A stretch of 46,349 nucleotides of DNA. It comes from Acidobacteriaceae bacterium (lineage in GTDB: Bacteria > Acidobacteriota > Terriglobia > Terriglobales > Acidobacteriaceae). The notes beneath the pieces were generated by a model that saw nothing but the letters and a program-made list of their open reading frames with translations, made no database searches and was not told where the DNA came from. The number at the start of each line of letters is the position of its first letter. Position 1 is the first letter of the stretch. The DNA is taken from positions 1 to 46,349 of the forward strand of contig JANXUC010000124.1 of the NCBI GenBank assembly GCA_025352065.1, given 5' to 3'. The translations under genes were made by a program, and so were the position numbers. Shown here piece after piece: positions 19,584-46,349 of the stretch.

Positions 19584-20279
19584 ATGCCAGAAGAAGAACG
19601 ATCAGACGGTTCAAAGCCATCGGTAAGAGGGGATTGGCGCAGCAGTCGGGGTATCACGACGGATCACGTTGATAGCTATCTCTACTCTCTGCTGCCAGCT
19701 CGCGATACCGTTCTTGGAGAGATGGAAGCGGAAGCCACAGCGCACGATATTCCTATCGTTGGCCCTGCGGTCGGACGCCTGTTTTATCAGCTGGCGACGA
19801 TGATCCAGGCGAAGACAGTTTTCGAAATGGGATCGGCCATCGGTTACTCCACCATCTGGTGGGCACGGGCGGTAGGTGAGACGGGTCGCGTGTTCTACAC
19901 CGATGGCGATCGCCGCAACGCAGACAAGGCTCGACGATACTTTGACCGCGCAGGCGTGACGTCTCGCATCAGCATCCACACCGGGGATGCGCTGGAAATC
20001 CTCTCCGAACAAAAAGACGAGTTCGACATCATTTTCAACGATGTAGATAAACACGACTACCCGCGAGTTCTGCGTCTAGCCGCGCCCAGATTGCGCAAAG
20101 GCGGGCTCTTTATTACTGACAACACTTTGTGGGGCGGGAAGGTAGCGTCGCCTGCCGCGTCGGAAGGCAAGCTAACGCAGGGCATTCAGGAGTTCAATCG
20201 CTTGTCTTACGTTGCGCAGGACTTCTACCCAGTACTCGTGCCGCTTAGAGATGGGGTTACGATGATGTTGAAGATATAA
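19584..20279 (+). CDS. Class I SAM-dependent O-methyltransferase (family 3, COMT-like)
   Basis: 231 residues with the O-methyltransferase family 3 pattern: helical N-terminus (ARDTVLGEMEAEATAHDIPIV), SAM motif I VFEMGSAIGYSTIWWA, motif II VFYTDGD, DALEILSEQKDEFDIIFNDVDKHDYPRVL with the metal-binding Asp, and LFITDNTLWGG. The substrate could be a catechol-type small molecule; it cannot be told from sequence. Third gene of the rhodanese operon, convergent with bshB1 (7-base gap). Confidence 0.92.
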   Translation: MPEEERSDGSKPSVRGDWRSSRGITTDHVDSYLYSLLPARDTVLGEMEAEATAHDIPIVGPAVGRLFYQLATMIQAKTVFEMGSAIGYSTIWWARAVGETGRVFYTDGDRRNADKARRYFDRAGVTSRISIHTGDALEILSEQKDEFDIIFNDVDKHDYPRVLRLAAPRLRKGGLFITDNTLWGGKVASPAASEGKLTQGIQEFNRLSYVAQDFYPVLVPLRDGVTMMLKI

Positions 20280-20286
20280 ATCCGAG

Positions 20287-21003
20287 CTAGATGGACTTCA
20301 CAGGGATCAGCAACAAGTCGTCCACCAATCCCACTTCCTTTTGCACGAACGGCTCACCGTATTCCACGCCGGCCAGCATTCCGTAAAACCGCGCCATCGC
20401 GCCGACTCGCGTACGAATCTCGGCATGAGCGGGGAAGTCGGCGCTACCGGCTGCCTGGTCTTCATATTGCGATTTGTAGGCGAAGAGGGATTGCGTGCGC
20501 GCTTCAAACTGCTCGCTGATGTCTACCACGAAGCTTGGGCGCACGTCGTGGTACAGAGACGCGTAGACGATTTTAAACGGACGATGCGGCTCGCCCTCGA
20601 TCTCGAGCTTCCGCAATCCCGAGAGAAAACACGCTTCATATCCCAGCGTCGAGGCTGTAGCATGATCGGGATGACGCGCTTGCCAGTAGGGAAGTATCAC
20701 GACCCGAGGCCGCGTTTCGCGAAGCACGCGCGCTACCTTAAGCCGGTTTTCCCAAGTGTTCTCGACGCGGCCATCTGGGATGTCGAGTGCCTTCCGCCAC
20801 GCAGCTTGCAAGATTCCGGCTGCGTCGCCGGCTTCCCGCGCACGGTCTTCCGCGGTGCCGCGCGTGCCCATCTCGCCTTGTGTCAAATCCAGAATACCGG
20901 TGCGATGCCCGCGCTGCGCCATCTTGAGCAGAGTACCGCCACAAGTTTGCTCCACATCGTCGCGATGCGCGGCAATGGCCAAAACGTCGAGAGGTAGAGT
21001 CAT
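20287..21003 (-). CDS. bshB1: BshB1-type bacillithiol biosynthesis deacetylase (PIG-L family)
   Basis: Zinc deacetylase that removes the acetyl group of GlcNAc-malate in bacillithiol synthesis. The ATG at 21003 begins right after the stop of the DUF190 gene (TGA-A-ATG) and gives 238 residues (MTLPLDVLAIAAHRDD); an ATG at 21027 would overlap the upstream gene. Conserved BshB1 blocks are GGTLLKMAQRGHRTGILDLTQGEMGTRG, ALDIPDGRVEN, VVILPYWQARHPDHATAS and the C-terminal SLYHDVRPSFVVDIS. The metal motif reads AHRDD where most PIG-L proteins have AHPDD; the His and both Asp are kept. Last gene of the crcB-DUF190-bshB1 unit. BshA and BshC are not in the window. Confidence 0.9.
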   Translation of the reverse strand: MTLPLDVLAIAAHRDDVEQTCGGTLLKMAQRGHRTGILDLTQGEMGTRGTAEDRAREAGDAAGILQAAWRKALDIPDGRVENTWENRLKVARVLRETRPRVVILPYWQARHPDHATASTLGYEACFLSGLRKLEIEGEPHRPFKIVYASLYHDVRPSFVVDISEQFEARTQSLFAYKSQYEDQAAGSADFPAHAEIRTRVGAMARFYGMLAGVEYGEPFVQKEVGLVDDLLLIPVKSI

Positions 21004-21004
21004 T

Positions 21005-21322
21005 TCAGTCAAGCGAGCCTTGCTCAATAACCACCTTCTCCCGCACGATCAACCGGTGTGCTGCCATTTCCTTGAGCATGGGCAGGACGCGGTTCACATG
21101 CTCGTCGGTGTCAACAAAGGTCACCACCACGGGCAGTTTTCCGCCAACGTCTACCAGATGGGTCGATTCCACCTGCTGGCGTCCCGTGAATCCCGCAACA
21201 GCGTGGAAAACTGTCGCTCCTGCCATGTTCTCTTGATGGAGAAAATTCAGGACTTCCAGATACAGCGGCTTGTGATGCCACTGATCGGCCTCGTTCAAAT
21301 AGAGTGTGACCTGGATAGCCAT
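21005..21322 (-). CDS. DUF190 protein, CrcB partner
   Basis: 105 residues from the ATG at 21322 (MAIQVTLYLNEADQWHHKPL). Longer readings of this frame run into the crcB gene and are not credible. The pattern of a ferredoxin-like, PII-like fold is visible: YLEVLNFLHQENMAGATVFHAVAGFTG, then LPVVVTFVDTDEHVNRVLPML. DUF190 genes frequently sit beside crcB and are thought to take part in fluoride or ion homeostasis, but no mechanism is established. It is 10 bp after crcB and 1 bp before bshB1. Confidence 0.88.
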   Translation of the reverse strand: MAIQVTLYLNEADQWHHKPLYLEVLNFLHQENMAGATVFHAVAGFTGRQQVESTHLVDVGGKLPVVVTFVDTDEHVNRVLPMLKEMAAHRLIVREKVVIEQGSLD

Positions 21323-21332
21323 ACCCGGAATT

Positions 21333-21707
21333 CTACAGCACCCGCGCCAGCGCCATGCCCGCCAGCGCTGCTGCCAGCGACAGCAGATTGTTGGAAACGA
21401 CATTGGCACCCACCAACAACCACTGTCCTTGCTCCATGAGCGCCATACTCTCGAAGGTGTAGCTCGAGAAGGTGGTAAAGCCGCCACAAAATCCAACCGC
21501 CACAAACAACCGCCAGCGTGGATCGACAATCACGCGCTCCATCGTCCAGATCATGAAAAATCCCAAGATGAAGCTGCCCAGCACATTGATCGTTAGCGTT
21601 CCATAAGGAAACGCCGAACCCAAAAGTCGAGCCGCCGATCGGCTCATCCAGTAACGGAGATTCGCGCCGAGGATTGCGCCGAGAGAAATTGCCAGAAAAT
21701 CGAGCAC
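21333..21707 (-). CDS. crcB: CrcB/Fluc fluoride exporter
   Basis: 124-residue four-helix membrane protein that works as a dual-topology dimer to let fluoride out of the cell. Family marks are LGAILGANLRYW at the N-terminus, GTLTINVLGSFILGF with the pore Asn (N41), and VGFCGGFTTFSSYTFE with the Phe/Thr/Ser residues of the central ion site. The start is the GTG at 21707, ten bases after a GGAG box (21718-21721). Longer readings (ATG 21743 or 21863) are excluded because their codons lie inside or upstream of the fluoride riboswitch at 21731-21787. First gene of the unit with DUF190 and bshB1. Confidence 0.93.
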   Translation of the reverse strand: MLDFLAISLGAILGANLRYWMSRSAARLLGSAFPYGTLTINVLGSFILGFFMIWTMERVIVDPRWRLFVAVGFCGGFTTFSSYTFESMALMEQGQWLLVGANVVSNNLLSLAAALAGMALARVL

Positions 21708-21730
21708 GATGGACCGTCTCCAGAAGAGAA

Positions 21731-21787
21731 TGGTAGGAGTCATCAGCCGGATGCTATTACGCGGCAGTTCTGGCGAACCCCATCGCC
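21731..21787 (-). promoter_or_regulatory. Fluoride riboswitch (crcB motif)
   Basis: On the minus strand the leader begins GGCGATGGGGTTCGCC, continues with the conserved AACTGCC, a short variable hairpin loop, then GGCTGATGACTCCTACCA. This matches the crcB-motif consensus: stem GGCGA/TCGCC, the ACTGCC/GGC stem, the invariant CTGATG and the CCTAC end. GGGGT of the first loop can pair with ACTCC near the end (one G-U), which is the pseudoknot of fluoride aptamers. The crcB ribosome-binding site follows 10 bases downstream, so control could be on translation; I see no terminator hairpin with a T run. It should turn on the downstream unit when fluoride binds. Confidence 0.93.
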
Positions 21788-21873
21788 GTCGTTTAGGTTT
21801 TATCACATTGAGGATCGGGGTGCGTACGGCCCGGAAACTCCTGTACGTCCGCCTTTGCCCCAACCCAAACTCA

Positions 21874-22785
21874 CTATTTTTTGCGCTCGACCAAATACCG
21901 CGCCAAAGCCTTCAGTGTCTCCGCCCGCTCCTTAAACGGCTCCAATGCAGTGAATGCTTGCGCCACCAGCACATCCGCCCGTCGCAATGATTCTTCAATC
22001 CCATACAGTGCGGGATACGTTACTTTCTCCGCCGCCGTGTCTTTCCCGGCGGTCTTGCCAAGCTGCTCCGACGACTGTGTCACATCCAGAACGTCGTCCA
22101 CAATTTGAAACGCCAATCCGACGCCTTGGCCAAAGGTCCGCAAACGCGCGATGGCATCCTCGTTGCCGCCCGCGTACAGGCCGCCACTCACGGTGCTGGC
22201 CGTGATTAGAGCCGCCGTTTTTGCGCGATGAATGTAGTCGAGCGTTTCCGCGTCTGGACGCGTGCGCTCCGCCTCAAGGTCCACGACCTGCCCGCCAATC
22301 ATTCCATCCACAGTCCCCGTGCCGCGAGCGATTTCCGCGATAATCCGCACCCGAGCATCGGAAGGGCAGCGCAGTCCCGCCAACACCTCATAGGCTTGGG
22401 TCTGCAAGGCATCCCCTGCCAAAATCGCAGTCGCCTCGCCAAACGCTTTGTGGCAGGTAGGGCGACCGCGCCGCAAGTCGTCATTGTCCAAAGCGGGTAG
22501 ATCGTCGTGAATCAGCGAATAGGTATGCAGCATCTCCAGCGCCGCACCCACATCCTCAATTCCGGCAGGCAGGGAACCTGCCACCATGCGTCCCGCCTCC
22601 ATGCAAAGGATAGGACGCAGTCGCTTGCCGCCTGCAAAGACGCTATGGCGCATGGCCTGGTGAATCGACGTTGGCCGCACCGTAGCCGCCGGAATCAGCC
22701 GCTCCAGCGCCGCATCCGCCAAGGCGCTGCCCTGCGCCAGGGTTTCCTTTAAGAAGCCTTGCTCCACCGCTGTCTCCTGCACCAT
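21874..22785 (-). CDS. ispA: Polyprenyl (farnesyl/geranylgeranyl) diphosphate synthase
   Basis: Trans-prenyltransferase that condenses IPP with allylic diphosphates. 303 residues. The first Asp-rich motif is HDDLPALDNDD (D94, D95, D100), preceded by GGKRLRPIL with the basic pyrophosphate-binding residues; the second Asp-rich motif is QIVDDVLDVT (about 225). KDTAAEKVTYPALYG is the usual lid segment. The motif spacing fits bacterial IspA-like enzymes, but product chain length (C15 or C20) cannot be fixed by eye. A monocistronic minus-strand gene ending 87 bp upstream of the riboswitch. Confidence 0.93.
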   Translation of the reverse strand: MVQETAVEQGFLKETLAQGSALADAALERLIPAATVRPTSIHQAMRHSVFAGGKRLRPILCMEAGRMVAGSLPAGIEDVGAALEMLHTYSLIHDDLPALDNDDLRRGRPTCHKAFGEATAILAGDALQTQAYEVLAGLRCPSDARVRIIAEIARGTGTVDGMIGGQVVDLEAERTRPDAETLDYIHRAKTAALITASTVSGGLYAGGNEDAIARLRTFGQGVGLAFQIVDDVLDVTQSSEQLGKTAGKDTAAEKVTYPALYGIEESLRRADVLVAQAFTALEPFKERAETLKALARYLVERKK

Positions 22786-23095
22786 GAATCGCTGAGTATA
22801 ACAAGTGGAGCGCGTAACGGGTATTTCACACCCGATTTAAGTGAAGTGAGCTACAATCCCGAGGACTTAAAGACTTGACTCAGGCGACAACTCGGCGAGA
22901 CTTGCGACTCAGCCTCCGTTGTCAGCCGCGTTCTTTCTTCGCCGTGGAGAAGAGTTCAGGCCTTACCCTAAAGCCTTTACCCACAGCGCGTTGCGAGTTC
23001 AGCTTTGGTTTCGAAGTGGATCGCTTTGACTCGGCATGAAATTACCGAGAAATCCCGCAATCGGCGAGAGTGCAAAATGTTGTAGAGAGGATTCA
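22786..23095. other. Intergenic stretch without a recognisable gene
   Basis: About 310 bases between the polyprenyl synthase start and the truncated ORF at 23096. A small hairpin CGGGT/ACCCG lies at 22818-22834, and a TACAAT at about 22853 could be a -10 box. Otherwise I see no coding frame, RNA fold or repeat that I can support. Confidence 0.5.
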
Positions 23096-43529: not shown

Positions 43530-46349
43530 ATGAAGAGCCTTCATAACATCCGTCGAATATTCAAGTCCGCAGCAGGAGGCAACACTCGTAGCCTCAGCAC
43601 TCTTGCCGTTGTCCTCTTCCTTACTTGTGCACTTTCCGCCCAAACCTACCGCGGCTCAATCCGCGGGATGGTAACGGATCCCAGCGGCGCGGTTGTACCG
43701 AACGCGAAGATTACGGCCAAGAATCAAGCCACAGGAATCACTCGTGAAGCGACCACAAACGGCGAAGGTGCGTACGTCTTAGCTGAGCTTCCGGCGGGGA
43801 GCTATGAAGTTGCGGCTGAAGCTCAAGGATTTCAACGCGTGGTCCAGAATGTGACGGTGAGCGTTGGGACTTATGCCACAGTCGATTTACGGCTGATCGT
43901 CCACGGAGTAGATGTGGTTGATGTTTCTGCGGCAACCCCGTTGGTTGAGACAACTCGTGACGTTCTTGGCCAGGTGGTCGACGAAGTACTCGTCAATGAA
44001 CTCCCTCTGAATGGCCGCGACTTCACTAAACTGGTCGCTTTGAGCCCTGGCGCGACGGTAGAGCCCTCTGGCGTTGCGGGCACACAGTTTGGGTTTGGCC
44101 AATTCAATATAAATGGCAATCGTGACCGCTCCAACAACTACACTCTGGACGGCACAGACAACAACGATCCCTACTTTAATAACTCCGCCCTAAATCAGGT
44201 CGGTATCACCGGAGCGCCAGCGTCCCTTCTTCCCATCGACGCGATCGCAGAATTTAATCTGCAATCGCACTTTGGCGCGGAATACGGACGGAATAGCGGG
44301 TCGGTTGTAAACATTGTTACGCGCTCCGGCACCAACCAGCTTCACGGGTCGCTGTTTTATTTTCTGAGGAATCAAAAGCTCGACGCGCGCAACTATTTCA
44401 ACACTGAACCACGAAAAACGGGATTCCAGAACAACCAGTTTGGCGCATCCCTCGGCGGCCCTATCGTAAAGGACAAGACGTTCTTCTTCGGTGCCTACGA
44501 AGGGCAACGGGAGCGGGTTGGCTCGGATTTCTCCTTGAACGTTCCGACCATTACCCAGCGTGCCAACGCACGCCAGATTGCACTCGGCTCAGGCTTGCTC
44601 CCGAACGGCATCAATCCCGCTTTGGACAAGATTCTTGATTTTTATCCCGCAAGCGACACGTCGACTATCGCTGGCGTCGTGCGGGACAAGAATGACATGG
44701 ATAGCTTCATCGCTAAAGTGGATCACAACTTTTCCGATAAAGAGCAGTTGACCGGGCGCTACGCTTTTGCTCGGAGTCAGCAAGTGTTCCCGCTTGGTTC
44801 CGCGGGAGGGTTTGGAAAAGGTTCGCGTCTTCCACAATTTGCGCAGACATCCCCAGCTCGCGTCCACGTGGCGTCCTTCAGCCTGTTTTCGGTGCTGAGC
44901 GGCGCACGCATCAATGAGATTCGCTTTGGCTACAGCCGCTATAAGACCTCGTTCAGCTCGCTCGATGCCAATCTTGATCCAGCAAGCCTTGGTATTGATT
45001 TCGGCACAGGCAAGCTTGGCCTGCCCGAATTCGATTTTGGAGGCATCGAGAATCTGGGTGCGGCTGGCTTCTCCGTGCCGCGTGGCCGCACAAGTCAGAG
45101 CTACCAAATTCTTGACAACTTTACGTGGACTCGCGGTCGACACACTTTCAAATTTGGCGGAGAATTCCGCCGCGCCGCCATCGAGAATTTTAATGACAAC
45201 CTCGAGCGCAGCATCATCAACTTTTTCCCGGTTGGCTTGGATCCAGATCCCGTCACAGATACCTTGGCCAACTTCTATTTGGGTGGAGCGCCGGACGGCA
45301 ACTTCTTTACCCTTGCCCTTACCGGCGATACTCACCGCACCACCTACAATAACGGCGCCAGCTTCTTCGTTCAAGACGACTTCCGCCTGAAGTCGAACGT
45401 AACTCTGAACCTCGGCGTTCGTTGGGAATACTTCGGCCCAATTAGCGAGAAGAATAAGTTGCTCTCCAACTTAGGGAAAGACGGACAACTCGCCATGGTC
45501 GGCACCGATGGCTTGAACGGAGCCTACGAAAGGGACCTCAACAACTTCGCGCCGCGAATCGGCATTGCCTGGAGTGTGTCCAGCAAGACCACTCTCCGTG
45601 CTGGCTATGGCGTGTATCACGACTACGTGCCGCAGCACTTGATGCTTGCCAGCTTTACGCCCTCCGCCGGTATTGCCACCAACCCGATTGGCGCCAAGCC
45701 GGTTACAGCTCTCAATTTCGACGGTAGCATTTTCAATGGGACGAACAGCGGCCCGATCTATAGTCTGTCCGCGTCCGCGCCAAATATCTTCGTTACACCC
45801 AGGAAATTTGCCACGCCATACACGCAAAACTGGAATTTCAATCTGCAGGAACAGCTGACAAAGGCTGCCGCGCTCGAAATTGGTTATGTGGGTAGTAAAG
45901 GTACTAAACTGGTGCGATTGTTCGACGCCAATCAGTCAGATTCCAATGGGAATCACACAGTCTTTCCAAAATACGGGAATGTGCATACGTTAGCACCGAT
46001 CTCCTCCTCCACTTACCATGCCTTCCAGAGTACGTTGCGACTGCAAGGCTGGGCGGGGGTCTCCGGCTTCGCGACCTACACTTGGTCGAAATCAATCGAC
46101 GACGCCTCGGATGGCATTGATTTCACAGCGGGTGCCGCCTTTCCGCAGGATTCCACAAACCTTAGAGCGGAGCGCGCGCCTTCCACGTTCGATACCCGCC
46201 ACCGGTTTACAGCAGCCGTCAACTACCGTGTTCCGACTGTGAAGGCCCTTCCCAAGAAGTTAGGCTCGGGTTGGGAAGCAAACTGGATATGGAGCGCTCA
46301 GTCGGGTCGGCCCATCAATATCATCACGTCGAATGACACCAGCAATCGC
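43530..46349 (+). CDS. TonB-dependent receptor with carboxypeptidase-like domain (Oar-like), incomplete
   Basis: The frame is open from ATG 43530 to the window end, 940 codons. Signal peptide (LSTLAVVLFLTCALSAQ) at about 22-38, a carboxypeptidase regulatory-like Ig domain (YRGSIRGMVTDPSGAVVPNA to about residue 130), a plug domain with NELPLNGRDFTKLVALSPGA, INGNRDRSNNYTLDGTDNND and AEYGRNSGSVVNIVTRSGTN, then the start of a large beta-barrel (FGASLGGPIVKDKTFFFGAY, FKFGGEFRRAAIENF, NFAPRIGIAWSVSSKTTLRA). This is the typical acidobacterial outer-membrane receptor, usually 1,000-1,200 residues. Ligand unknown; likely a sugar or peptide. The C-terminus lies outside the window. Confidence 0.92.
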   Translation, partial: MKSLHNIRRIFKSAAGGNTRSLSTLAVVLFLTCALSAQTYRGSIRGMVTDPSGAVVPNAKITAKNQATGITREATTNGEGAYVLAELPAGSYEVAAEAQGFQRVVQNVTVSVGTYATVDLRLIVHGVDVVDVSAATPLVETTRDVLGQVVDEVLVNELPLNGRDFTKLVALSPGATVEPSGVAGTQFGFGQFNINGNRDRSNNYTLDGTDNNDPYFNNSALNQVGITGAPASLLPIDAIAEFNLQSHFGAEYGRNSGSVVNIVTRSGTNQLHGSLFYFLRNQKLDARNYFNTEPRKTGFQNNQFGASLGGPIVKDKTFFFGAYEGQRERVGSDFSLNVPTITQRANARQIALGSGLLPNGINPALDKILDFYPASDTSTIAGVVRDKNDMDSFIAKVDHNFSDKEQLTGRYAFARSQQVFPLGSAGGFGKGSRLPQFAQTSPARVHVASFSLFSVLSGARINEIRFGYSRYKTSFSSLDANLDPASLGIDFGTGKLGLPEFDFGGIENLGAAGFSVPRGRTSQSYQILDNFTWTRGRHTFKFGGEFRRAAIENFNDNLERSIINFFPVGLDPDPVTDTLANFYLGGAPDGNFFTLALTGDTHRTTYNNGASFFVQDDFRLKSNVTLNLGVRWEYFGPISEKNKLLSNLGKDGQLAMVGTDGLNGAYERDLNNFAPRIGIAWSVSSKTTLRAGYGVYHDYVPQHLMLASFTPSAGIATNPIGAKPVTALNFDGSIFNGTNSGPIYSLSASAPNIFVTPRKFATPYTQNWNFNLQEQLTKAAALEIGYVGSKGTKLVRLFDANQSDSNGNHTVFPKYGNVHTLAPISSSTYHAFQSTLRLQGWAGVSGFATYTWSKSIDDASDGIDFTAGAAFPQDSTNLRAERAPSTFDTRHRFTAAVNYRVPTVKALPKKLGSGWEANWIWSAQSGRPINIITSNDTSNR

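Follow-up and report, generated by a model that had tools for sequence, protein, structure and literature searches.

How can a fluoride riboswitch control its gene when only 25 nt separate the core of its aptamer from the start codon? This question is raised by the minus-strand leader of crcB in an Acidobacteriaceae bacterium (GCA_025352065.1; genome of 4.25 Mb). We analyzed a stretch of 46,349 nt, positions 1 to 46,349 of contig JANXUC010000124.1, which we call the window. A previous interpretation made from the letters alone (the sequence-only reading) had recognized in this leader all conserved blocks of the crcB-motif aptamer, with a possible GGGGT/ACTCC pseudoknot, directly upstream of a CrcB/Fluc exporter. 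It had also argued that longer readings of crcB would translate the aptamer and that a GTG at 21707, with its GGAG box, was the start.

The window carries a full-length fluoride riboswitch aptamer

In a covariance search, the leader matched RF01734 over its full length (model positions 1 to 64, not truncated) with a cmscan score far above the gathering score of 34, and P1, P3, and the pseudoknot were all readable in it (Table 1). The blocks described earlier are thus all present, and the suspected pseudoknot was right; it contains one G.U in its middle, as it does in several relatives. The end coordinate given by the sequence-only reading, 21787, marks where P1 begins; the Rfam match extends 9 flanking bases beyond it. 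This copy was the sole RF01734 match in the genome, and RF01734 was present in 45 of 61 relatives. The sensor is an ordinary member of the family, and from this membership we infer that fluoride is its ligand and that it regulates the gene downstream.

Table 1. Features of the crcB leader and operon in the window
Feature	Position	Strand	Basis
Extended -10-like element TGTGATAAA, ending 11 nt upstream of P1	21799..21807	-	Comparative inference
Fluoride riboswitch aptamer RF01734	21727..21796	-	cmscan 58.5 bits, E 8.3e-14
Aptamer core, P1 to ACTCCTAC	21787-21733	-	
P1, GGCG / CGCC	21787-21784 / 21775-21772	-	Read from sequence
P3, GCCG / CGGC	21765-21762 / 21749-21746	-	Read from sequence
Pseudoknot 5' strand GGGGT, in P1 loop	21777..21781	-	Pairs with ACTCC, sequence
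Pseudoknot 3' strand ACTCC	21736..21740	-	Sequence
Proposed anti-aptamer over ribosome-binding site, TTCTGGAGACGGTCCATCGT	21706..21725	-	MFE and centroid folds
Shine-Dalgarno GGAG, 10 nt before GTG	21718..21721	-	Sequence
crcB, 124-aa Fluc-type fluoride channel, GTG start	21333..21707	-	PF02537 100.3 bits
DUF190 (COG1993/UPF0166) protein gene, 10 nt after crcB	21005..21322	-	PF02641 99.5 bits

The target gene, its start codon, and its operon

The Rfam match ends 20 nt before the crcB start on the same strand, which bears out the proposed arrangement of aptamer and exporter. The encoded protein also matched solved Fluc channel structures (PDB 5a43, E 4.4e-15), and a PF02537 gene occurs in a single copy in the genome, so that this crcB is its only fluoride-export gene.

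As the sequence-only reading had noted, a longer open reading of crcB, from a TTG at 21863, runs through the aptamer. In 27 of the 32 relatives with the same compact layout, an in-frame stop lies inside the aptamer or leader, which argues that the open frame upstream of GTG 21707 is accidental. Moreover, the open reading frame from the equivalent start codon encoded CrcB in all 31 named Acidobacteriota genomes found by the sequence pattern described below. This comparison with relatives, whose GGAG is located 9 nt before the crcB start, settles the annotation, with GTG 21707 as the credible start.

Of the 32 compact relatives, 24 also have a DUF190 gene after crcB, at a distance of no more than 1.7 kb. 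Given this conservation and the 10-nt gap in the window, the two genes probably form one operon and are probably both controlled by the riboswitch. The DUF190 protein, which UPF0166 structures match (PDB 2dcl and 1o51), is perhaps a partner of CrcB.

A generic sigma-70 scan found no promoter in positions 20000-23000. When 56 leaders were aligned on P1, an A-rich -10-like signal was enriched approximately 9 to 16 nt upstream of P1, being strongest at 9 to 13 nt. In the relatives, TGTGGTAAAAA, TGTGATAAAAC, or CTATACT stands at roughly this position, and the window has TGTGATAAAAC. This comparative signal is better promoter evidence than the generic scan, and its position just upstream of the aptamer suggests that the transcript most likely starts at the aptamer or immediately ahead of it, which speaks against a start downstream of 21740.

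The ribosome-binding site of the relatives complements the aptamer 5' strand

In most compact crcB leaders of the lineage, the ribosome-binding site reads GGAGAACTCCATCGTG. Here, GAACTCCATCG exactly complements CGATGGAGTTC of the aptamer itself (P1 plus the pseudoknot strand), so that the aptamer fold and the ribosome-binding site fold are mutually exclusive. The proposed capturing segment of the relatives is an extended, near-exact copy of the aptamer 3' pseudoknot strand (AACTCCATCG).

Selection for this aptamer-ribosome-binding site pairing in the lineage finds support in three comparative tests. Among 32 compact crcB leaders, chosen only for RF01734 and not for the platform, the longest stretches complementary to the aptamer 5' strand summed to 212, compared with 130 in shuffles. 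With the register fixed relative to the start codon, 5 or more of 6 pairs formed in 18 of these 32 leaders; of 350 control leaders from other genes, drawn from the window and the relatives' loci, 22 reached this level. We also scanned 84,980 species with a pattern consisting of the aptamer 3' strand followed by GGAG, 2 to 4 free bases, and TCCATCRTG. All 31 matches were in Acidobacteriota, and all were at the start codon of CrcB. The free bases before TCCATC were AAC in 18 of the 26 three-base cases, AAT in 3, AGC in 2, GAC in 2, and TAC in 1; all but the TAC could pair (25 of the 26), whereas a random triplet fits in 1 of 8, a comparison that is not a formal P value since the genomes are related. 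The complementarity is thus conserved across the lineage.

An RNAalifold consensus of 16 leaders, a descriptive test because they were selected for having the motif, contained an 11-bp helix between the aptamer 5' strand and the ribosome-binding site, with P3 kept. By hand count, 14 substitution cells in this helix keep the pair by wobble versus 5 that break it; the aptamer side hardly varies, and the helix is without double compensatory changes. In energy models, which contain no pseudoknot, Mg2+, or fluoride, the mean unpaired probability of the ribosome-binding site in consensus relatives rose from approximately 0.1 to approximately 0.5 with the aptamer forced into its docked state, and the effect of docking exceeded that in at least 59 of 60 shuffles in each of five relatives (L006, L017, L019, L034, and L036). 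These compact leaders are likely translational ON switches, and at the level of the lineage a translational mechanism is well supported.

One relative, L023 (G035:C198), has a largely intact aptamer and GGAGAACCTCATC, with GGG at the position of the start codon. The region downstream scored no CrcB match, possibly reflecting a decayed crcB or an assembly error.

The window has an imperfect copy of the proposed capturing segment

The copy in the window keeps TCCATCG in register, its upstream part being GGAGACGG; placed relative to the start codon as in the relatives, the segment complementary to CGATGG forms 7 of 7 pairs with the window's own aptamer when wobbles are counted. Both the minimum-free-energy fold and the centroid fold of the leader use the anti-aptamer pairing, in which TCCATCGT pairs with GCGATGGG (21786-21779) and TTCTGG with CCAGAA (21773-21768), this extra helix taking the place of the upstream part. 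The 22-nt duplex, of a length picked after the fold was seen, had an energy of -22.5 kcal/mol. Of the controls, 8 of the 3000 shuffles and 2 of the 180 leaders from other genes were as strong, so that it beats approximately 99% of them. A 16-nt duplex was weaker, being equalled in 189 of 3000 shuffles and 24 of 180 other-gene leaders (P of approximately 0.06 to 0.13, not significant). Docking raised the modeled accessibility of the ribosome-binding site from 0.25 to 0.34, an increase equalled in 33 of 60 shuffles and not significant, and the docked model pairs the Shine-Dalgarno sequence locally. The folding energy of the whole leader was no better than that of shuffles (z -0.56). For the window copy, a translational mechanism is moderately supported, and it may work as the relatives' copies do.

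A model for the switch and its alternatives

We consider it likely that the window holds a riboswitch that turns on translation of CrcB by means of an anti-aptamer over the ribosome-binding site, and it would probably also control the cotranscribed DUF190 gene. The transcript would start at or just before the aptamer. Because the OFF helix has the greater stability in the fold models of consensus relatives, switching probably requires that the aptamer fold first during transcription and then be held by fluoride. In the absence of fluoride, the complementary segment, which covers the Shine-Dalgarno region, the spacer, and the start codon, would capture the 5' half of the aptamer (P1 strand plus the pseudoknot strand, CGATGGGG...), with P3 staying folded and the ribosome blocked. 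With fluoride and Mg2+, the docked pseudoknot would hold the 5' strand, the ribosome-binding site would be freed, and CrcB would be made. In the relatives, two copies of one strand would compete for the same partner. If this is true, the ribosome and the pseudoknot compete for one RNA strand. The predicted ON direction fits the expectation for a resistance gene.

Transcription termination, by an intrinsic terminator or by Rho, would make the pairing at the ribosome-binding site incidental. The best-studied fluoride riboswitches do terminate transcription (PMC8752731, PMC11077080), and members of the same class (L048, L053, L110, and L124) have CTCCTGG...CAGGAGTTTTTT terminators after the aptamer. 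However, no terminator-like stem was found in the 25 nt between the window aptamer and crcB, nor from 21800 to the crcB start; the distance from aptamer to start is only 22 to 39 nt among the compact relatives; and in all 31 named relatives the complement coincides exactly with the ribosome-binding site and the start codon. Termination is hence an improbable explanation, although Rho could still contribute a secondary effect in the window.

Still less probable is a degenerate or decaying switch, in which the aptamer binds fluoride and the altered ribosome-binding site no longer regulates strongly. Such decay would account for the window spacer ACGG, which departs from AAC, and for the modeled switching that was not significant. 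The aptamer, however, still scores 58.5 bits with its conserved residues largely intact, TCCATCG is kept in register, and a lower stability of the OFF state could tune rather than break the switch. Masking of the Shine-Dalgarno sequence by the aptamer 3' strand (ACTCCTAC pairing with GTAGGAGT), as seen in other relatives whose GTAGGAG Shine-Dalgarno sequences are complementary to ACTCCTAC (L004, L008, L010, and L018), is just as doubtful and was rejected for the window, which has only GGAG/CTCC and a duplex (dG -7.1) no better than shuffles (P 0.73).

Within the class, the same aptamer thus appears to be coupled to capture of its 5' strand, to masking of the Shine-Dalgarno sequence by its 3' strand, and to terminators. 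Somewhat less firmly than the model for the window, we favor the view that Acidobacteriota evolved a fluoride platform of their own, in which the aptamer 3' pseudoknot strand is duplicated, in extended form, as the spacer between the Shine-Dalgarno sequence and the start codon, giving three platforms for one aptamer in one class. The result is a natural series of variants around one aptamer: exact, wobble, degenerate, and terminator.

Further fluoride riboswitches in the relatives

In several relatives, fluoride riboswitches are numerous (13 copies in G272, 11 in G212, 10 in G227, 9 each in G164 and G280, and 6 in G032). As read from open reading frames, those on G032:C6 precede genes for a MutS-like protein, a NuoH/HycD-like membrane subunit, and an enolase, all of gene types with a known link to this riboswitch class. 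At L169 (G272:C117), five fluoride riboswitches lie on one strand within 10.8 kb (at 849, 3523, 4512, 6215, and 9822), apparently forming a dense fluoride-responsive island. Tandem aptamers on the same strand, approximately 25 nt apart, occur at L035/L117 (G064:C82:45217-45276 and 45301-45363), where a terminator-like sequence, CTGGGGGTTTTTCTTT, comes after the second, and a similar pair occurs in G092:C131. Divergent pairs facing away from each other, approximately 100 nt apart, were found at L025 (G043:C12:251250-251314(-) and 251411-251477(+)) and in G254:C1 (4565951(-)/4566101(+)).

Comparison with known fluoride riboswitches

The window resembles the crcB motif of RF01734 in P1, P3, the pseudoknot, the conserved sequence, and the crcB target; it differs in that one of its pseudoknot pairs is a G.U. 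The novelty is in the expression platform, a lineage-specific variant, and not in the sensor. No description of a copy of an aptamer strand in the spacer of a ribosome-binding site was found in the open-access papers that we searched, and an earlier account in a subscription journal is possible.

The fluoride riboswitches of Bacillus cereus and Thermotoga petrophila are transcriptional (PMC8752731, PMC11077080, PMC13273304) and act by strand exchange with the pseudoknot (PMC13273304, PMC11077080). There, as in the model proposed here, one of the pseudoknot strands is contested by a segment further downstream, and the ligand-stabilized aptamer excludes the OFF fold. In contrast to those systems, the competitor in the window would lie on the ribosome-binding site and start codon instead of in a terminator, and it would take the 5' strand, with P3 retained.

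Those of Burkholderia pseudomallei and Pseudomonas syringae have been called translational (PMC13273304), and fluoride riboswitches sometimes act presumably through translation (PMC8814607). They are alike to the window in that control of translation is presumed where a terminator is lacking; no description of their OFF helix was found in the open-access literature, and the GGAGAACTCCATCGTG arrangement was confined to Acidobacteriota when 84,980 species were scanned for that sequence pattern. Since the mechanistic work that we found on fluoride riboswitches was mostly on terminator-based ones, with the translational ones only "presumably" so (PMC8814607), this compact and conserved platform supplies translational fluoride switching with a concrete model that can be tested.
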